IMG/VR virus record: IMGVR_UViG_3300032093_009723
Location: 1-25,611 of that record
Strand: one strand, 5' to 3'
From: a virus
Length of the DNA: 25,611 nt
Part shown: positions 1-14,567 of the stretch, one piece after another
Numbering within the stretch: position 1 is the stretch's first letter
How the letters are laid out: each line of letters begins with the position of its first letter
Translations under genes and position numbers: made by a program
The notes under the pieces: generated by a model
Told to the model about the DNA's origin: nothing
What the model saw: only the letters and a program-made list of their open reading frames with translations
Database searches by the model: none

Positions 1-2135
1 GCCAAGTTCATTCTACGCATCTGTGGTTGAACATACTTGTTGCCAATCACATTCATTTCATATGTCGTGGTGCTACTCAATGAACTTTGACGAAGTGGGT
101 CCACAATCAACGGAACCACATTGGTTGGACGAGCATCAATGTTTCCTACCACCAATCCGTTGTGGATGAATGGATAGGCATACCATGCGAACGGCATTCT
201 TCCTTGAAAGTATCCAACCCCACCACGATATGTCACTCTGTCTGTTTGCCAGTTGAATCCGAAACGAGGACCGATCAACAAACTTCTGCCATAGTCGTTG
301 GTGATGGTGCTATATGGTTTGGTACCATTCATGAGAGTGATGTTCGTAAACGCATCTGCTTGAACTGGTGTGTCCATCATATTCCAGTCTGCACGAAAAC
401 CTGCGGTTACCTTGAAGTTGTCGGTGACTGCTACTTCATCTTGAATATACACACTTGGTACGGTGATATTGAAGTTGGCACCTGGATTGTTCAACACATA
501 ATCTAAACTATTGTCCGTTAAATCAAATGTGGCTCTGATACGATTAGGACGATTTGCGAAGAATGATGCGAGGTTTGCATATTGCCAACGACCTGCGTAT
601 CCATTTACGAATGTGTATTGAATATTGTAGAACTCATTGTGAGTACCAGCGGTAAGGGTATGCTTCCCCATAGACCACGTGAGATTGTTGGTCACTTCAT
701 AGGTGCGAACTTTGGTACCATACACCACCCCTTCACGGTCACTACCTGCATTGATTTGACCAAACTGAATATCTTGGATTTCAATTTGTGGTGCGAACAC
801 ATCACCATATGGATTTCTGTGGTCACGAACAAGTGAATATCCCAACAACAAACTATTGGATACTCCTGTTCCAAGTTGTGATTTCAATTCAGCAACGGTG
901 TTGGTGGCTCTACTGAAATGGTCGAAATCTTGTGAGGCTAACTTGGTAAGTGCTTGTCCACGTTCCAAGTTTCCTGCGACTGCATTGACAAGATTACTAC
1001 GAACCGTCAGTATGGAGTTCCCAATATTCCAATCCACACGACCGAAATACTTTTCACTATTTGCTTCAATGTCATATGCCCCAAAGGTTCCTGCATCAAA
1101 GTTCGGGACACCTGATTTTGCTGCGAATGATACAAGACTGTCACGGACCTGTTGTGCAACTGCTTCGGTTGCCAACACGCCTGGGTTGCCAGGTGCAAAT
1201 AGGATAGGGTCTGTTCTACGTGCAATTTCAAAGTTCACAAAATAAAACAACTTGTCCTTGATGATTGGTCCACCGACACGACCACCTGCTTGATATTCAT
1301 TGAAGGTGGTTGGCATTTTACCAGAGATACCATCACCGATGAATTGTGGAACACGACCGAATGAGTAGATGGAACCTTCGGTGGTGTTGGTACCTGAACG
1401 AGTAACTGCATTCACACTACCACCTGTGAAATTACCAATCTTCACATCATATGGTGCGATGACCACCGATACTTGTTCAATCGCGTCAAGTGAGATGGGT
1501 TGTGAACGTGAAAGAGAACCAGGTGTTCCCGTTGGAACGGATGCGGTGGATTGACCTGATGATTGACTGAAACCGAACGCATCATTCGATGCTGCTCCAT
1601 CAATCGTCAAGTTGTTATACCGATAGTTGGAACCCGCGAAAGAAACCCCGTTACCTTGTGGGGTCATACGGGTCATATCTTGGAGACTACGAGATAGGGT
1701 GGGAAGCACTTGTAACTTCTCTTGATTCAGTTGTGCCACCGCACCATCTTTACGTGCTTGTGCTGCTACGTCTGCAATAACCGATACTTGGTCTAATACA
1801 ATAACAACCTTTTCCATCTCTATATCAGTTGTAGTTGCTTCACCTAAACGAACCGTTAAATTATCAGAGGACTTTGGACGGAACCCCAGTGCGGTCACCG
1901 ATACTGTGTATGGACCGCCTGGTTTCAAATTGGATAAGATGAAGCGCCCTTCTGTTGTCGTTCTCGTAACAATTCGTTGATTCGTTGGAACAAACACGAC
2001 TGTAACATTTGCATTTTCAATTGTACTACCTGTAACATCTTTAACAGTACCACGAAGGATTCCGCTGGTGATTTGCGCGTAAGCGGAGGTAGACAACATC
2101 GCAGTTGCTAAAAGAATTTCCAACATTTTTCTCAT
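1..2135 (-). CDS. Oar-like TonB-dependent outer-membrane receptor (partial, C-terminus off window)
   Basis: I translated this frame by hand from the ATG at 2135 to the window edge and found 711 codons without a stop. Residues 1-21 form a signal peptide ending in SAYAQ. Residues about 25-105 look like a carboxypeptidase-regulatory beta-sandwich (GTVKDVTGSTIENANV, then TEGRFILSNLKPGGPYTV). Next comes a plug-like domain containing LTIDGAASNDAFGF and IEQVSVVIAPYDVKIGNFTG followed by GGSVNAVTRSGTN, and then a long aromatic-rich stretch typical of a beta-barrel. This order matches Oar-type TonB-dependent transporters, which are usually about 1000 residues, so several hundred residues are probably missing at the edge. 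It starts 65 bases after the phage polB stop, on the same strand, and has similar base composition. No clear promoter or strong ribosome site precedes it. Known relatives are bacterial outer-membrane proteins and some are phage receptors; a role in this phage is inference. A chimeric assembly is the main alternative. Confidence 0.85.
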   Translation of the reverse strand, partial: MRKMLEILLATAMLSTSAYAQITSGILRGTVKDVTGSTIENANVTVVFVPTNQRIVTRTTTEGRFILSNLKPGGPYTVSVTALGFRPKSSDNLTVRLGEATTTDIEMEKVVIVLDQVSVIADVAAQARKDGAVAQLNQEKLQVLPTLSRSLQDMTRMTPQGNGVSFAGSNYRYNNLTIDGAASNDAFGFSQSSGQSTASVPTGTPGSLSRSQPISLDAIEQVSVVIAPYDVKIGNFTGGSVNAVTRSGTNTTEGSIYSFGRVPQFIGDGISGKMPTTFNEYQAGGRVGGPIIKDKLFYFVNFEIARRTDPILFAPGNPGVLATEAVAQQVRDSLVSFAAKSGVPNFDAGTFGAYDIEANSEKYFGRVDWNIGNSILTVRSNLVNAVAGNLERGQALTKLASQDFDHFSRATNTVAELKSQLGTGVSNSLLLGYSLVRDHRNPYGDVFAPQIEIQDIQFGQINAGSDREGVVYGTKVRTYEVTNNLTWSMGKHTLTAGTHNEFYNIQYTFVNGYAGRWQYANLASFFANRPNRIRATFDLTDNSLDYVLNNPGANFNITVPSVYIQDEVAVTDNFKVTAGFRADWNMMDTPVQADAFTNITLMNGTKPYSTITNDYGRSLLIGPRFGFNWQTDRVTYRGGVGYFQGRMPFAWYAYPFIHNGLVVGNIDARPTNVVPLIVDPLRQSSLSSTTTYEMNVIGNKYVQPQMRRMNL

Positions 2136-2152
2136 AAGAGAGTCTCTATAAC

Positions 2153-2176
2153 CGAGCCCCGTCTGTGGGTGGCTCG
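2153..2176. repeat. Hairpin between polB and the receptor gene
   Basis: CGAGCC at 2153-2158 pairs with GGCTCG at 2171-2176, and further C:G pairing is possible inside the 12-base loop. On the minus strand it is followed by GTTATAG rather than a T tract, so it is not a convincing intrinsic terminator. It would lie in the 5' leader of the receptor mRNA or at the 3' end of the polB mRNA. Confidence 0.35.
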
Positions 2177-2200
2177 ACGCTAGGGGTGAATAAATACATA

Positions 2201-4726
2201 TCAGAAACTAAACCATTCCTGAGCGTTCTGATTTACCTCTGTGGGGATGTTACCCCATTTTAACGCAGAATAGAAATCTTCCAGCTTCTTCTGCAATTCG
2301 TTCTCAAATAATGCATTATAATCAATATAAGTATTTACTATCTCAACGATTTCCCGCGGGTCATTATACCCCTTGACCGCCACCGCTTCGAGATTCCACG
2401 GGTTCTGTTTCAGATATAACCACTTGACCTTTTCCCCATCCGAAATAGCTTCATACTTGTTTTGAATCTTGAAATGTTTCAACAAGGAATTATAGGTGAT
2501 TGCCGCCTTTACGTGGGCGGGAGTTCCCTTACGGAAATCATTCAGCTTTCCCGTCCGTAAATCGTATTCAGAAATGTTCTTGACCGCCGTGTTTCTGGCG
2601 ACATCCAGATACGACATACTATCCATTGAATCACGGAACGTCAGTACCTTCTGGTCAATCTCTTCCTTTGTTGCCTTATTCAAGATGTCTTTCATCATCT
2701 TGTTCATAAAGTCACGGAACGCCGGCGGGAAGCTGGAACGAACAACGTCCAGTCCCTTGACCTTCATCTTATTTGCTACATCAAGATTGGATTCCAAATC
2801 ATAGACCACATTCATCGCATATCGCTTCTTCGCAATCCAGATAGCGGTCTGAGCAACGGACTCACCCTTGATATACAGCCGATGATTCTTACAGAAGAAC
2901 AGCTGTTCAGCCATTTCGTTATAATACTCGTTCAGCTTCTTCTCCATCGCACGAGCCAACTTGATAGTAAATTCTTTCTGCGATGCTGTTTCTGGCATTA
3001 ATGGAGTTGCTGAGAAGTACAACGAATCGGTATCAATATACGTACAATAATCTTTCTGCTCTTCCAGCTTTGAACAATACAAGTCATTGGCAAACGCCGC
3101 AGACTTCTTAATCACATCTTGACCAGAGGCGGTCACGGCAAGTGCGTTATCCAAATCGAAGAATCGGAAAATGGGAAGTCCCAACACACCATATAATGAA
3201 TTCAGGAAAATCTTCTGAATGTGCTGGCGTCGGTCATAGAACTCAGCCAATTCAGCGTTTCCTTCGTTCTTATGCTTCTTCATCAGATTCTTATACTCGA
3301 CACGTTCTGCGAACCACTTGTCGAGTACTTCTGGAATAATCCCCACCGCACCCCCATTATATAGAACGCCATTGGAACTAATCATCAGACTTTCCATCTT
3401 CATATATTTCAAGAATGCTTCGCGGCTCAACCGTACCACTTCCTCATCGGTTGTACCACGAATCAAATATTCCTGCATATCACCAGCCGCATGCTTGTCC
3501 ACATTCCAGTTGGTCACAAATCCAATCTTGGTTTCGGGACTGATATTGAGACTCATAATGATAGATGGATACAGCGATTGTAAGTCGAGGGAATAGACCC
3601 ATTCATATAGACCGGGATTCGGTTCCTTCACGAACGCACCAGCGAATCCTTCTTCATCATTTTCTGCCTTGTTATCCATCATCTCACGACCACCAGCGGG
3701 TCGGTTTGTTACAATGATGCCCTTTCTATGAAGATAGGTTACAATCGTGCCTTCCAAGAACTTCGAACTAAACCAATAATCTTCATATGAAACGTGACCC
3801 AAATGACAAATACCACGAACGAGCTCAATCAGCTTGAGCTTCTTGTCCATCTCTACGATGATGCGTACGTCTTGAAGATTGTACTCAATAAACTTCTCCA
3901 AATCATTACGGAACAATTCATCGAGCGACCCTTGATATTCGACCTTTCCCATGCCCACCTCCAACCGACCAATCGTATCTAAACGATAATTCGGCTGTTG
4001 AGTGTAGGTGAACTTCTTATATAATGTCAAATAGTCTAGCGAGGATACGCCCGCAATCTGGTACCGACTACGGAACTTGGAATACTTAATCTTTCCAATC
4101 GGACTCAACCGACCGGCTGTATTTGGTCCACACTGCTGCTTGATACGATGATAGAGATATGGGATGTCGAAAAAGTCACTATTCCATCCAGTAACAATCG
4201 TCGGTCCAATCTGCTCATACAGGTCCAAAAATCCATAGAGCAAGTCCAATTCCGATGTATACATTACGACCTTAACATTATCATACTCACGACTTGGTTG
4301 AACTCCCGCCTTGTCCAGTACCAATACCGTATATTCCTGCGTCACCGAGTCATATACCGCAATGGACGTAATTTCATTGTTCGGATTCTCAATATTTGGC
4401 ACGCCATTTTCCATAGACACTTCGATGTCGAAAAACATCGTCTTATGCCCTTGGGAAACGTTATCCTCGTTCAGATATAAATCGGTGAGCACGCGAGTCT
4501 CTTGGGGAAGGTCGCTCTCAAATAATGATGGGTCATCTCGCTTATAGCGCTTGACCTTTGCCAACCGCACACCAGTCATGCTGATGAATTGCCCATTGCG
4601 GTCGGGCTTATACGCATAATCAAATTTATTATAAGGAATGGTCTGATACCCTAGCTCGTCATCCCATAAATGCACGGTATCGTTGCCAAATCCTTCACCA
4701 CGTTCAATGTAAATTGCCTGATACAT
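2201..4726 (-). CDS. Family B DNA polymerase, replicative (gp43-like)
   Basis: An 841-residue protein, close to the size of T4 gp43 (898). The N-terminal 3'-5' exonuclease is complete: Exo I FFDIE with D100 and E102, Exo II NSDFFD at 182-187, and Exo III YNLQD with Y282 and D286. Polymerase motif A is SLDLQSLYPSII (D381), motif B is KIFLNSLYG from K505, and motif C is YIDTDS with D565 and D567. It should therefore be an active, proofreading replicase acting with the helicase, SSB and recombinase encoded upstream. No intein block is visible. The ATG at 4726 follows GGAGGTTATTT, a strong ribosome site. A TTGACA-17-TATACT promoter at 4749-4777 gives a very short leader and lies over the end of the upstream endonuclease gene, so polB can be transcribed separately from that gene. 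Identification is firm. Confidence 0.97.
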   Translation of the reverse strand: MYQAIYIERGEGFGNDTVHLWDDELGYQTIPYNKFDYAYKPDRNGQFISMTGVRLAKVKRYKRDDPSLFESDLPQETRVLTDLYLNEDNVSQGHKTMFFDIEVSMENGVPNIENPNNEITSIAVYDSVTQEYTVLVLDKAGVQPSREYDNVKVVMYTSELDLLYGFLDLYEQIGPTIVTGWNSDFFDIPYLYHRIKQQCGPNTAGRLSPIGKIKYSKFRSRYQIAGVSSLDYLTLYKKFTYTQQPNYRLDTIGRLEVGMGKVEYQGSLDELFRNDLEKFIEYNLQDVRIIVEMDKKLKLIELVRGICHLGHVSYEDYWFSSKFLEGTIVTYLHRKGIIVTNRPAGGREMMDNKAENDEEGFAGAFVKEPNPGLYEWVYSLDLQSLYPSIIMSLNISPETKIGFVTNWNVDKHAAGDMQEYLIRGTTDEEVVRLSREAFLKYMKMESLMISSNGVLYNGGAVGIIPEVLDKWFAERVEYKNLMKKHKNEGNAELAEFYDRRQHIQKIFLNSLYGVLGLPIFRFFDLDNALAVTASGQDVIKKSAAFANDLYCSKLEEQKDYCTYIDTDSLYFSATPLMPETASQKEFTIKLARAMEKKLNEYYNEMAEQLFFCKNHRLYIKGESVAQTAIWIAKKRYAMNVVYDLESNLDVANKMKVKGLDVVRSSFPPAFRDFMNKMMKDILNKATKEEIDQKVLTFRDSMDSMSYLDVARNTAVKNISEYDLRTGKLNDFRKGTPAHVKAAITYNSLLKHFKIQNKYEAISDGEKVKWLYLKQNPWNLEAVAVKGYNDPREIVEIVNTYIDYNALFENELQKKLEDFYSALKWGNIPTEVNQNAQEWFSF

Positions 4727-6037: not shown

Positions 6038-6343
6038 TCACTTGATGCGATTTAGCTTCTGCTCTATCTTGGTCTTTTCATTCTTACCGTATAAGAATTC
6101 TCTTGTCCGGCCTTCCTTATAGAACATCAACATTGGAATAGCCTTAATTCGGTTCTTTTCTTTCAATTCTGGTTGCTCATCAACATTGACCTTATAAAAA
6201 GGAATCTCTGACTCCTTTGCTAATTCCTCTACGGTTGGTAACATTTCGATGCAGGTTGGGCACCAAGGAGCCCAAAAATCTACGACAAAGGGTTCCTTGG
6301 ATGCCAACTTTTCTTCAAACTGTTGTAACGTCAACTCCTGCAT
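6038..6343 (-). CDS. Thioredoxin (CPTC active site)
   Basis: A compact 101-residue thioredoxin. VVDFWAPWCPTC (residues 20-31) holds the redox cysteines C28 and C31, and AIPMLMFYKEG carries the cis-proline P70. The active site is CPTC rather than CGPC, which should change the redox potential. Its ATG overlaps the reductase stop codon as TAATG, with GAGGTG just upstream, so the two genes are translationally coupled. Class II reductases are re-reduced by thioredoxin through their C-terminal cysteine pair, so this is the likely dedicated electron donor of the reductase encoded immediately upstream. Confidence 0.93.
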   Translation of the reverse strand: MQELTLQQFEEKLASKEPFVVDFWAPWCPTCIEMLPTVEELAKESEIPFYKVNVDEQPELKEKNRIKAIPMLMFYKEGRTREFLYGKNEKTKIEQKLNRIK

Positions 6344-8193
6344 TATTGCACCTCACACCCACCGCCACCACAAGCAACTTCACCTGCAAGGTCGGTATTA
6401 TCTTCGACTTCAACTACCTTGGTTAAGTCAATCTTGTGTAAGTGACCAACCATTTCGTTGTATTGTGCTTCATCAATATCTTCGAACGGTGCTTGCATAT
6501 AGCTGTGGTCTGAGTATGGAAGAACTGACAATGCGGTGAAGTTCTCACGATTCTCCCACATCCATTCACCAACACCAACCCATTCATCTGGCTTGATGGT
6601 TACGGTGACCGATACGTTATTCTTGTTTTCACCCTTACGGTGACCAGCCTTTACCCATTCCTTCCAGACCTTACTGGTACGAGCCAATAAGTCGAGTGCA
6701 GATTCTTGACGAGTGATAGCACCCTTTGGAGCCTTTTGTGGAACGGAGATAACTGCTTGTTGCTTCGGCTTGAAGAATTCGTCCTCAACAATTTCTGGAT
6801 GATTGTCAACCAAGTATTGGTAGATACTTTCGTTCTTTCCAACACGGACACGACGAACATAGAAGTCGTTATGCCAAGCGTGAATACCAGAAGAAGTTCC
6901 TAATACTAGTGACGAGGTTCCTTCGGGCTTGACAGTGGTGGTTCGTGCAGCCTTGTTGGTCCCAATCACTTCCGCCACACGTGCGTTTTCTTCCTTCACA
7001 ACATTAGCAGCTTCCTTCATATCCAAATTTAATACAGTACCCGATGCAATACCCGTCATCGAAACACCGATAAGTGCTTCCTTTTCTGTGGTGCGTTTCC
7101 AAATATCACGGAGATAATGGAAGTTAGTATAACTTGCTTGAAGTGTTCCGATGAACGCTGCTGCCTTTGCACGGGCGTTGTAATCAGCTTGGTCCTTGAT
7201 ATCGCCAGCATTGATGGTGGTCAAGTTACAGAATTGGAACGGACGGAGACTGATTTCTGCACAAGGATTTAATCCCCAATTTGCATCGTTCGTAAAGAAG
7301 AAGCCTGGTTCGCCTGAACCACTCATTTCAATCTTCTTCCACAAGTCTAAGAATACTTCTTGTTCAACCTTGTGACGAAGGATAACTGCTGAATTGTTTG
7401 AACGACCACGTTGTGGATTGGTTTCCCACCAGTTGCCGAACTTACAAGTCAACATATCATCATCGTCCAAATCGAATAATGAAATCATTGCGGAACGACG
7501 AATACCACCAGACAATACTGCATCAGCGATGAAGCACAACATATCGTGTACTTCAAGGGTACTGAGCTTATCGCCGTTTTGCTTACGGTCGAAAATCTTT
7601 TGGATATTGTGTAAGCAATCCTTGAGCGGTTCTGGACCAGGTGCCTTACCACCAGAGGTCAAGAGTAATGCGCCCTTTGGACGAACATCGCTAAAATCAT
7701 AAATCGGAAGAGCCTTACCCTTCATATATGCAGCAATCATCACCTTCACTGCATCTGCCCAACCTTCGATACTGTCACCGACGAGGTAACGGCGGGACTT
7801 GGTTGGCTTATTAATTTCTGGTAACTTTTCTACGTGTGCACGCTGTACCGAATAACCTACACCTGTTCCAGAAAGAAGAAGGAACATCACTTCACTGAAA
7901 GCATCCGTGTGGTCGATTGGAAGGAAGCAGCAATTGTATAACCGAGCGTTATTGATTTCAATTGGCTTACCAGCAAATTGAAGTGAACGCATGGATGGAA
8001 GAATCTTCTTATCATATACGAATTGATATGCTGCTTCAATTTCTTGTGCGAGTTGTGGGAACTTCTTTAAATGCATCTCTTTGTTTCTATCAACTAACTC
8101 TTTCCAAGTCTCACGGCGTTGCTTCTTGGGCAAATACTTTGAGTACTTCATAAAAGTTGTGATTTCAGAAAGAATTTTTGCTTCTAATTGCAT
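6343..8193 (-). CDS. nrdJ: Adenosylcobalamin-dependent (class II) ribonucleotide reductase
   Basis: A 616-residue monomeric class II reductase of the RTPR type. It converts ribonucleotides to deoxyribonucleotides using adenosylcobalamin. The N-terminus (KYSKYLPKKQRRETW, then ILPSMRSLQFAG) and GTGVGYSVQ fit this family. The active site is complete: C88/C89 in LYNCCF, radical cysteine C311 with E313 in NPCAEI, C322 in FQFCNL, and the swinging C-terminal pair C608-GGGG-C613. PEGTSSLVLGTSSGIHAWH is the usual phosphate-binding region. It is shorter than the 739-residue Lactobacillus enzyme. Since B12 is needed, the host must make or import cobalamin. It heads a coupled run with two thioredoxin-fold genes and dUTPase. 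The start at 8193 has GGAG nine bases upstream. Confidence 0.95.
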   Translation of the reverse strand: MQLEAKILSEITTFMKYSKYLPKKQRRETWKELVDRNKEMHLKKFPQLAQEIEAAYQFVYDKKILPSMRSLQFAGKPIEINNARLYNCCFLPIDHTDAFSEVMFLLLSGTGVGYSVQRAHVEKLPEINKPTKSRRYLVGDSIEGWADAVKVMIAAYMKGKALPIYDFSDVRPKGALLLTSGGKAPGPEPLKDCLHNIQKIFDRKQNGDKLSTLEVHDMLCFIADAVLSGGIRRSAMISLFDLDDDDMLTCKFGNWWETNPQRGRSNNSAVILRHKVEQEVFLDLWKKIEMSGSGEPGFFFTNDANWGLNPCAEISLRPFQFCNLTTINAGDIKDQADYNARAKAAAFIGTLQASYTNFHYLRDIWKRTTEKEALIGVSMTGIASGTVLNLDMKEAANVVKEENARVAEVIGTNKAARTTTVKPEGTSSLVLGTSSGIHAWHNDFYVRRVRVGKNESIYQYLVDNHPEIVEDEFFKPKQQAVISVPQKAPKGAITRQESALDLLARTSKVWKEWVKAGHRKGENKNNVSVTVTIKPDEWVGVGEWMWENRENFTALSVLPYSDHSYMQAPFEDIDEAQYNEMVGHLHKIDLTKVVEVEDNTDLAGEVACGGGGCEVQ

Positions 8194-12831: not shown

Positions 12832-13233
12832 TTAGAAATTCAGAATTTGTTGTATTTTAGTACGAACTATTTTTAATTGGCCGTGGGCCGTAACTAGAAT
12901 AGAATTCTTTAATTCATCCCAATTTACCCTATACGCCTTATCAATAATACCACCATTCTTACTTGCGATAAGAGCATTTAATGCATTAATGGTGTATATT
13001 GTATTGGTTTGCTTTTTCCGATGTACGGAAATAGTGGAAGCCGGAGGTTGGTGTCCAGCCTTCAATGACCCCACAACAATATTATATGTTAAAATTAGTT
13101 GATTGGCGTCATCAACATTTTCTAACACATAGATATTATTAAAAGCCAATTTATAGGAATCTTGGATAGCCTTTACGTGCTGTTCCAATTCTGCGGCTGG
13201 AATAAACGTGCAAAGTAACTGAGTTTCGTTCAT
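12832..13233 (-). CDS. Hypothetical protein (133 residues)
   Basis: I do not recognise this protein. It has 133 residues, a mixed alpha/beta character, no signal peptide, no membrane segment and no obvious metal-binding cluster. The central part (QLILTYNIVVGSLKAG) looks like paired strands, and the C-terminal half is basic (RKKQ, TKIQQIL), which would allow nucleic acid binding. It sits between the PolA-like gene and the SSB gene, and its end lies 8 bases before the SSB promoter, so a replication-related or regulatory role is possible but unproven. The ATG at 13231-13233 is preceded by AAGAG. An A/T-rich inverted repeat lies upstream. Confidence 0.75.
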   Translation of the reverse strand: MNETQLLCTFIPAAELEQHVKAIQDSYKLAFNNIYVLENVDDANQLILTYNIVVGSLKAGHQPPASTISVHRKKQTNTIYTINALNALIASKNGGIIDKAYRVNWDELKNSILVTAHGQLKIVRTKIQQILNF

Positions 13234-13266
13234 ATGATACTCTTAAGAAGCGTTAATCACTTCAAA

Positions 13267-13295
13267 TAAGTATCAAATTGTCTTTGATAAACTTA
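13267..13295. repeat. Inverted repeat at the end of the PolA-like gene
   Basis: TATCAAA (13271-13277) and TTTGATA (13283-13289) form a perfect 7-bp inverted repeat with a 5-base loop. TAAG (13267-13270) and CTTA (13292-13295) extend it past a 2-base bulge. It includes the stop codon of the PolA-like gene. On the minus strand TTTG follows, so it could be a weak A/U-rich terminator or an operator for the gene below. Confidence 0.45.
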
Positions 13296-14567
13296 TATTT
13301 TATGTAAGAAAAGATTATCGTAATTAGCCCCACGATACTGACGAACAGGAAATCCACCGGCGCTCAATATATTGGCCACGTTTTCCATAGAATCCAATTC
13401 AGTATTTGGGACATCCAATAGAATTGCATCATACGTGTATAGAATGACTCTAGATTCATGCATTCCAAGGAAATTACAGACATCATACACCCGTTGGATG
13501 GCTTCTTCGGTTTCCGTCAACTGCATCATATAGTTGAATACCTTGTTCTTGGAAGCGTCCACCAAGGTCACTTTGCGACCCGTTCCTGACAATACAAATC
13601 CATTCTGACGGTATTCTTCCCACAGTTTGGAGGAATACCCCTTAATCTTTTGGAAGAACTCTACGCCACCCGTATCGTCGGACTGACCATACATCAAGGC
13701 AAAGGTACGGGCCTTAGACTCCTCATACTGCTCTTCGGTCACTTCATCCACTCCATAATACTGCTGAGCGAGATAGGTGTGAAGTGAGGTGGGTGGGAGT
13801 TGGTAATCCATTAACTTCCCAGCCAACCGCAAGTGGAACGCCTCATAATCGAACTGAACCAATGTTCCGTTTTCCCCGAACCGACTGACAAACTTCTCAC
13901 GGGAACCATCGTTTTTGTTCAGAGCGGCAAAGTTGATGCCACCGAAGGCATTACTTGGACGGCCGGTAGACGTATAGATGTTATAATCGGAATATACGAA
14001 GTTATTATCGGTCGTATACAATCCAGACTTCTCAATACTGGTCAACGTCGGAATCGTTATCTGGTTGATGAACTGGAACGCCGAGTCGTGTTCCGTGGAC
14101 TCATATCGCTTGTAGAGATGTTCGCAATGTTGAAGGAACGCCTCTGCGGTTTCCACCCATGAAGTCAACGGGATACTATAGTGAAGATTCTTGAACTTGA
14201 ATTGATTTTTAATCTGATGAATACCCATCGTATAGAATTCACGATAGATAGGAATCACATCATAGTTAAGGTGTAGTATCGTAGCCAAATCTACAATGTT
14301 TACTGCATTAGTCAGATGACGCAGTTCCTTCTGGTGAAGGGTAATTAACTTGTGTGCACGCTTCAAATCCATCTCAAAGTGTGGAGCGTCTGGATGGTTC
14401 ACGGATACGGTATAGAACGTTCCATCGTCAAAACGAAAATGGAGTGATGACAACTTGTTCTGTACGGGATGCAGAAACGCATCAACCGCCACGGGATAGA
14501 CGTACGCCGTCTCTTCCTCTAAGCGGTTGGTGAGTTGTATAATATCGTCTAGTCGCGTGATAACCAT
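13293..14567 (-). CDS. Family A DNA polymerase-like protein, compact and divergent
   Basis: A 424-residue protein with the palm and fingers of DNA polymerase I. YTSTGRPSN (198-206) matches the conserved TxTGRLSS block. VQFDYEAFHLRLAG holds motif A with D240. KARTFALMYG is motif B, with K285, F289 and Y293 kept but the preceding arginine lost. LYTYDAILLDVP is motif C, keeping D380 but reading YDA instead of HDE. Both metal-binding aspartates remain, so catalysis is possible. The N-terminal 160 residues have strand-like segments where an exonuclease would lie but no DxE motif, and the protein is far shorter than Pol I (928) or T7 polymerase (704). The window also has a full PolB, so this may be a gap-filling, repair or translesion polymerase, or a non-catalytic derivative. 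It has its own promoter, and GAGGAA precedes its ATG. Confidence 0.85.
   Translation of the reverse strand: MVITRLDDIIQLTNRLEEETAYVYPVAVDAFLHPVQNKLSSLHFRFDDGTFYTVSVNHPDAPHFEMDLKRAHKLITLHQKELRHLTNAVNIVDLATILHLNYDVIPIYREFYTMGIHQIKNQFKFKNLHYSIPLTSWVETAEAFLQHCEHLYKRYESTEHDSAFQFINQITIPTLTSIEKSGLYTTDNNFVYSDYNIYTSTGRPSNAFGGINFAALNKNDGSREKFVSRFGENGTLVQFDYEAFHLRLAGKLMDYQLPPTSLHTYLAQQYYGVDEVTEEQYEESKARTFALMYGQSDDTGGVEFFQKIKGYSSKLWEEYRQNGFVLSGTGRKVTLVDASKNKVFNYMMQLTETEEAIQRVYDVCNFLGMHESRVILYTYDAILLDVPNTELDSMENVANILSAGGFPVRQYRGANYDNLFLHKI

Follow-up and report, generated by a model that had tools for sequence, protein, structure and literature searches.

Related large contractile-tailed phages carry intact genes for TonB-dependent receptors (TBDRs) of several subfamilies. 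Many of these genes are located within the replication cluster, in the part that contains the genes of RTPR, an adenosylcobalamin-dependent ribonucleotide reductase, and of the family B DNA polymerase (polB). Short covarying RNA leaders precede the receptor genes of the type found in the window, those of the contigs L223 and L002 and those here named type C. The window is the whole analyzed stretch of 25,611 nucleotides (IMG/VR record IMGVR_UViG_3300032093_009723).

At its left end the window encodes, on the minus strand, the N-terminal 711 codons of an Oar-type TBDR (3..2135), which has an ATG start and a frame cut by the window edge. The rest of the gene, whose recovery had been proposed in a preliminary description of this DNA, was found in IMG/VR homologues of 1045-1051 aa with the C-terminus ...NF, the full-length receptor having approximately 1045 codons. 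Codons 1-20 form a predicted Sec signal peptide (2076..2135) as read from the sequence by eye, with a putative cleavage site; Q21 is invariant in the receptor alignment. Next are a carboxypeptidase-regulatory-like N-terminal extension (PF13620, residues 27-108, 1812..2057) assigned by Pfam, a candidate TonB box located by alignment (residues 114-121, 1773..1796), the plug region (residues 126-250, 1386..1760) and the first part of the beta-barrel (PF25183, 3..1385), assigned by Pfam and fold and cut by the window edge. All of these features are on the minus strand.

The Pfam matches of the window receptor to CarboxypepD_reg (4.2e-18) and OMP_b-brl_4 (5.4e-26) were both above the cut-off, and no PHROG match was found at E 0.001. 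Pfam Plug reached 15.0 bits in the L001 receptor (cut-off 23.9) and was unlisted for L004; the plug assignment in this group of receptors, here named clade A, is therefore based on alignment and fold. Between clade A lineages conservation is highest in the plug, with 94% identity of L001 and L004 compared to 76% in the barrel and 51% in the N-terminal extension. At position 116 of the TonB box the window receptor has Q, whereas 46 of 53 cellular rows have E. In four clade A rows this glutamate is replaced by Q or G, while the hydrophobic pattern L-x-x-V-x-V is kept in the alignment. The Oar-type architecture, i.e. an extension of the PF13620/PF13715 kind before plug and barrel, was present, and in L170 the extension scored below cut-off. 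The initial assignment as an Oar-type TBDR was borne out by the Pfam matches, the alignment and the fold.

The upstream neighbour of the receptor gene is polB (2201..4726, minus strand; Pfam and PHROG). The gap to the polB stop at position 2201 is 65 nt, exactly as described before. A similar composition of both genes had been stated as well. This held for the GC content (receptor 0.444, polB 0.436) but not for GC3 (0.387 and 0.514, respectively) or for the GC skew, which is near zero in the receptor and negative in polB.

A search for the receptor beside polB in related phages, as suggested at the outset, found the junction in five other IMG/VR contigs (L218/L007, L219/L001, L220/L009, L221 and L222/L008). 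L221 contains only the first 117 receptor residues, and the junction of L007 carries less weight, since this contig and the window agree completely over 530 codons. Homologues of clade A were present in 11 contigs. In nine of them the gene is complete and uninterrupted, the L007 copy is truncated at the contig end and the L002 receptor has a single TAG stop at codon 176. Six of the 11 (L003, L004, L005, L006, L010 and L011) are near-identical at the receptor, which leaves about four independent lineages.

Three flanking contexts were found within clade A, namely polB, RTPR and the context of L002. In the L003/L004 lineage the receptor begins 40 nt past the reductase rather than polB. In L002 the preceding gene is presumably nuclease-like, and a permuted tmRNA directly follows the receptor gene (13109-13431, G006; ARAGORN tag GTYNTPLALAA; Rfam tmRNA_permuted and beta_tmRNA). 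This tmRNA had no match in phages. It also scored above the cut-off for the betaproteobacterial model, which we regard as a host lead only.

The receptor observation is correct, and an assembly artefact is very unlikely. For a chimera or bacterial contamination one could quote the Bacteroidota as closest cellular relatives found, the deviating GC skew and GC3 of the receptor, and the receptor type of L223, which is known beside polB from one contig only. The repeated junction, the three flanking contexts and an identity of 73-100% among phages compared to at best about 42% to cellular proteins make such an origin barely conceivable. Given this best cellular identity, a recent host origin of clade A was also rejected. 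Purifying selection acts on the clade A receptor (dN/dS 0.056-0.123 in pairs with differences) and, together with the repeated junction, upholds the earlier view of a true phage gene. Between the window and L009, dS was 0.21 for the receptor, 0.53 for RTPR, 1.01 for DnaB and 1.05 for polB. Since the receptor value is far below those of the other genes, the gene seems to have been exchanged between phages.

The ribonucleotide reductase of the window (6343..8193, minus strand) has the adenosylcobalamin-dependent RTPR as its nearest model (258.6 bits, below the cut-off of 340). This model was the best match for the reductases of both the window (E 1.1e-76, below cut-off) and L230 (9.1e-107, above). 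A reductase of the RTPR type is also present in L232, and close relatives of the window reductase are found in clade A contigs and in L223. The RTPR gene of L232 (574-2985) has an intein-like insertion (Intein_splicing, HNH_3). Besides its family B polymerase, the window phage has a short family A polymerase-like ORF of 424 aa (13293-14567).

The first part of the larger record G003 encodes the window proteins at 99.8-100% identity. G003 carries a sheath, portal, terminase and baseplate wedge, and its terminase is 53% identical to those of Flavobacterium phage immuto and Microcystis phage Mel-JY01; the window polB is 43.5% identical to that of Mel-JY01. No integrase match was obtained in the 10 contigs searched, some of which may be fragments. 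Sheath, baseplate wedge and the lack of an integrase match in these 10 contigs support a contractile-tailed phage, in line with the T4-like phage supposed initially. No TonB C-terminal domain (TonB_C) was found in 12 phage records, so any energy for the receptor must come from the host.

An AF2 model built on an alignment of 57 rows reached a pLDDT of 73.6 and a pTM of 0.72, while a 4-row alignment gave a pLDDT of only 25. In the 57-row model the pLDDT was below 50 at residues 111-133 and 161-212, in the linker with the TonB box and in a section of the plug. Foldseek and VIA-align placed the model among TonB-dependent transporters (FusA, YddB, PirA, Cir and BtuB), with VIA-align Z values of about 26-33 over the 50 entries shown, including PirA, Cir, FusA and BtuB. 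The predicted fold is that of a TonB-dependent transporter with plug and large barrel, the plug part of the model being of low confidence. In a viral structure library the top match was A0A8D9FQQ5 from an uncultured marine phage, named 'TonB-dependent receptor SusC' (805 aa, 9% identity). It was the sole match named TBDR among the viral-library matches listed.

A profile scan that included cellular rows yielded five further contigs (L166, L168-L171), here named clade B, whose receptors resemble one another by 69-94% and clade A by 36-38%. The Pfam Plug model missed the clade B receptors G410-G413, and Plug scans are therefore no proof of absence. Where the genes are present, the clade B phages resemble the window group by 47-49% in polB, 59-62% in UvsX and 52-60% in terminase. 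G412 stands further apart (polB 22%, terminase 27%, portal 41%). The clade B phages G409, G410 and G412 carry NrdA/NrdB-like pairs, i.e. a class I reductase, together with a TBDR; the class was assigned by family search in G409, by Pfam in G412 and by a similar ORF pair in G410. A second TBDR of 847 aa belonging to another subfamily is present in a clade B phage (L179 6251-8794, G409 46250-48793); the ORFs after it resemble secreted proteins or lipoproteins on visual inspection.

The closest cellular relatives found were Oar-like TBDRs of Bacteroidota with about 38-42% identity over the full length. Cellular sampling beyond this phylum consisted of plasmids and one pattern-seeded genome scan, a separate search of 395 genomes having covered one phylum. 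The best 80 of 201 titles in the genome scan were Bacteroidota or MAGs named so, except 'bacterium A37T11', and proteobacterial plasmid matches were at most 28% identical over the full length. In a FastTree phylogeny of 98 rows, clade A (4 tips) and clade B (5 tips) were each monophyletic with support 1.0, and cellular Bacteroidota rows lay between them. This separation is most simply read as two independent captures. Clade B had a supported cellular sister group (0.98), whereas the sister support of clade A was only 0.148. Phylogeny and structure prediction of the barrel had both been advised initially; the former placed the clades among Bacteroidota rows and the latter gave the transporter fold. 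The unannotated 6.1 kb record MT837825 from human faeces was rejected as phage evidence, as it groups with Bacteroides finegoldii in the tree.

In L223 the slot of the receptor is filled differently. This contig has a polB 87% identical to that of the window and shares the downstream gene of the window group, yet a different TBDR lies between them, here named type D. The type D receptor has 905-912 aa with Plug, TonB_dep_Rec and CarboxypepD_reg above cut-off, and two extra genes are located past it. The swap is known from one contig, and a search with the type D receptor returned only this contig. A promoter-like sequence resembling TTGACA-N17-TATATT and overlapped by an inverted repeat lies just past the receptor slot (L219 ~11750, L220 11363, L222 11762, L223 12763) and is kept where the receptor is swapped.

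A putative leader hairpin with compensatory base changes lies just 5' of the receptor start (2152..2177, minus strand). It is common to the clade A gene, the swapped receptor of L223 and the L002 receptor. Among six distinct leader rows, four of the nine pairs were changed on both sides and two pairs were each broken in one row. The covariation score was reached by none of 500 shuffles. The number of further pair types, reached by 492 of 500 shuffles, was not above shuffles. An unusually stable fold was rejected (z -1.53; L222 -1.10, L223 +0.17, L002 -0.48), so covariation is the only argument for this candidate element.

We further compared the 15 polB loci with at least 42% identity (L218-L232), of which 12 had a TBDR in the available flanks: clade A in five, type D in L223 and type C in six (L227 and L231 as fragments only). 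Of the remaining three, L224 lacks upstream sequence, L229 ends in polB and in L228 none was seen. Queries with the clade A, clade B and G409 receptors found no TBDR in 24 more distant polB loci (L233-L256). Receptors of types C and D both scored above the Pfam Plug cut-off.

A type C profile scan gave at least 184 candidates, 80 of which were examined. All 80 genes lacked an internal stop over the matched range. Among these 80 of 184, more than 1500 nt of flank was available at 69 loci, and 66 of them had RTPR no more than 700 nt before the receptor. At the 67 loci with over 800 nt of flank, polB followed within 700 nt in 45. In the rest of the 67 polB was 706-2641 nt away (15 loci) or none was seen (7 loci). 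The type C loci L289, L309 and L334 had none of the queried phage genes.

The type C leader is a covarying H-type pseudoknot with the order P1-P2-P1'-A-rich loop-P2'. In an alignment of 24 leaders picked by hand, 96.2% of 260 cells were paired, with slid controls at 18-50%, and 6 of 11 pairs showed double changes in 22 cells. None of 500 shuffles reached the covariation score. The further-pair-type count was neutral (reached by 305 of 500), and the outermost P1 pair failed in 7 of the 24 leaders. No Rfam riboswitch, including cobalamin and preQ1, reached the gathering score in 6 + 10 sources, and at E up to 10 the L283 leader had two matches only, both far under the gathering scores. A known Rfam element was therefore rejected for the leaders searched.

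Of the 80 type C loci examined out of at least 184, 68 contained a strict sequence pattern of the leader, as did four other loci, which are polB-anchored views of the type C contigs L225, L226, L230 and L232. By contrast, a structure-only descriptor was unspecific, with 359 plus-strand matches in 929 kb. Scanning the whole collection with the pattern, which is biased toward type C leaders as it was derived from them, gave at least 120 stretches, 80 of which were examined. In these 80 of 120, a type C start followed within 150 nt in 69, the contig edge was reached first in nine, and RTPR was located upstream in 75. The last two, L406 (5122) and L414 (7887), had no receptor in the available stretches. 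Here the leader and the same 27-codon remnant lie between RTPR and polB. As RTPR was kept (86%) while the receptor was lost, the receptor is dispensable there.

Shine-Dalgarno (SD)-like motifs were frequent in the clade A contigs, with 40/103, 40/78, 33/80, 32/82, 22/53 and 9/30 ORFs compared to 14.2, 12.5, 10.9, 12.1, 7.3 and 3.9 expected, respectively, and in type C polB loci (21/48, expected 5.8). Clade B had 22/181, 4/139, 9/144 and 3/51 (expected 12.4, 3.0, 6.2 and 0.8), and the Bacteroidota loci of the cellular relatives 15/548 (expected 20.5). In Flavobacterium phage immuto and Mel-JY01 the counts were 2/55 and 15/45. By these counts clade B fits typical Bacteroidota hosts, whereas clades A and C do not. 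However, the less similar Bacteroidota loci L145-L149 had such motifs in 9 of 16 ORFs; SD-using members therefore exist in the phylum, which argues against a strict host reading. Either the receptor would have crossed phyla, or the host may be an SD-using relative within the Bacteroidota.

As to function, we tentatively favor a host-energised importer made during infection, which would supply a scarce nutrient for phage replication; we give this somewhat less than an even chance. The receptor would be exported by the host Sec system, folded in the outer membrane by the host BAM and energised by the host TonB-ExbBD. Where RTPR is present the leading candidate cargo would be a corrinoid (B12), with iron complexes or peptides as alternatives. 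The leader probably sets receptor expression, as a riboswitch or protein operator, and subfamily swapping could be the replacement by a transporter that suits the local host. Purifying selection, the higher conservation of the plug than of the barrel, the dedicated RNA leader and the place beside RTPR support import. Against it stand the altered TonB-box glutamate in four clade A rows, the low pLDDT of plug residues 161-212, the stop codon in L002 and the dispensable receptor in L406/L414. Furthermore, the L223 swap suits a replacement at the cell surface at least equally well.

Such a replacement is the main rival. The phage TBDR would displace the TBDRs of the host or compete with them for outer-membrane space, BAM or TonB, and competitor phages using TBDRs as well as bacteriocins would be blocked. 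The different subfamily in the same slot of the related phage L223 (one contig) and a clade A receptor that in some phage pairs (window and L009) is more alike than the other genes compared, and so seems exchanged between phages, are consistent with superinfection exclusion. There is also precedent for phage proteins that inactivate the TBDR FhuA, i.e. Cor according to passages of PMC11436027 and Llp by the title of the Llp-FhuA structure 8a60. However, these known excluders are inhibitors and not whole transporters, the plug is more conserved than the barrel within clade A, and the adjacency to RTPR would be left unexplained. We consider exclusion possible, though rather unlikely.

The importer reading has a more specific form, in which a corrinoid is taken up for the phage RTPR. 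The preliminary description had regarded cobalamin as an idea worth testing. In its favor, RTPR immediately precedes the type C receptor in nearly all of the flanked loci counted above and lies upstream at most of the leader-pattern places, it neighbours the receptor in L003/L004, and RTPR-type reductases occur in the window and its relatives. On the other hand, clade B phages with a class I reductase still carry a TBDR, no cobalamin riboswitch was found in 16 sources, and L406/L414 keep RTPR without a receptor at this place. Mel-JY01, which has an RTPR relative, did not turn up among the phage matches of the receptors of clades A and B and types C and D. A BtuB family assignment was not obtained: the B12 receptor model TIGR01779 matched neither L001 and L004 (E up to 1) nor L169, L223, L226 and L232 (E up to 0.01), while the second TBDR of G409 gave a weak partial match (33.8 bits, cut-off 599.7). 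Moreover, the two genes may be neighbours simply because both belong to the replication cluster. On balance this form of import seems improbable, and the cobalamin idea stands in part, by the position of RTPR. We think it still less probable that the receptors are a widespread, exchangeable transporter set beside the B12-dependent reductase, with pseudoknot leaders of a new family as switches that sense a metabolite or phage replication protein, and importing a cofactor that limits phage DNA synthesis.

An export channel releasing a phage or host protein is very improbable: Oar is needed for PopC secretion in Myxococcus and shares the architecture, but according to passages of the same source (PMC6434023) this architecture dominates Bacteroidota TBDTs generally, and types C and D are other subfamilies. 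The released decoy considered initially was rejected, as no specific evidence for it was found.

TBDRs are classic doors of phage entry, and here phages supply TBDRs repeatedly and from different subfamilies. These phages may change the outer surface or the nutrient uptake of the host during infection. If the receptors are importers, infection would draw on the medium beyond the stores of the cell alone; if they are excluders, phages would compete for the cell surface by adding a new receptor to it. As type C contigs are many (at least 184 candidates), an effect on infected cells may be common. In addition, the type C leader is a small covarying and tractable element preceding one gene in the places examined.

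A TBDR encoded by a lytic T4-like phage had first been described as without known parallel. It is not unique, as TBDRs have been annotated for megaphages (passages of PMC9723777) and Acinetobacter prophages (passages of PMC6193963), and several sets were found here. The passages of PMC12494485, PMC6784887, PMC11436027 and PMC7696170 do not name phage or prophage TBDRs. The phage TBDR as a kind is thus not wholly new, whereas the receptor slot, the swapping and the RNA leaders were not found reported in the open-licence literature covered.

The nearest parallel are the megaphages Mar_Mega_1 and LR745206 (635-657 kb), for which passages of PMC9723777 describe a putative SusC TBDR and suggest carbohydrate uptake. 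These too are large phages encoding a TBDR; a replication-cluster slot, swapping or an RNA leader do not appear in these passages. A0A8D9FQQ5 probably belongs to Mar_Mega_1. LR745206 has two Plug ORFs (77454-80087 and 136722-138704), and plug-region matches were also obtained in the megaphage records LR756501, LR756502 and LR756503. In Acinetobacter baumannii a TonB-dependent receptor is listed among prophage transporters (passages of PMC6193963). Here the TBDR was assigned to phage DNA by annotation and our comparison is by description only; unlike the window phage, these are prophages predicted within sequenced host genomes.

Cellular Oar-like TBDRs of Bacteroidota have the same architecture at the moderate identity given above. 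The phage forms differ in forming two separate clades within phage gene clusters, with SD-like signals in clade A and largely without them in clade B. Oar of Myxococcus xanthus, compared by description (passages of PMC6434023), shares the N-terminal extension, plug and barrel. BtuB shares the general TBDR fold (Z 29.6 to 1nqe) but is shorter, and no BtuB family match was obtained with the tested proteins of clades A and B and types C and D. The type C leader presumably resembles the preQ1-I riboswitch and the operator pseudoknot of T4 gene 32, which are likewise H-type pseudoknots in short leaders with an A-rich loop; unlike preQ1-I, the type C leaders searched had no Rfam match. Finally, with Cor and Llp, which act on FhuA, a phage also alters a receptor of the TBDR type, but these proteins are inhibitors, whereas the phages described here encode the receptor itself.
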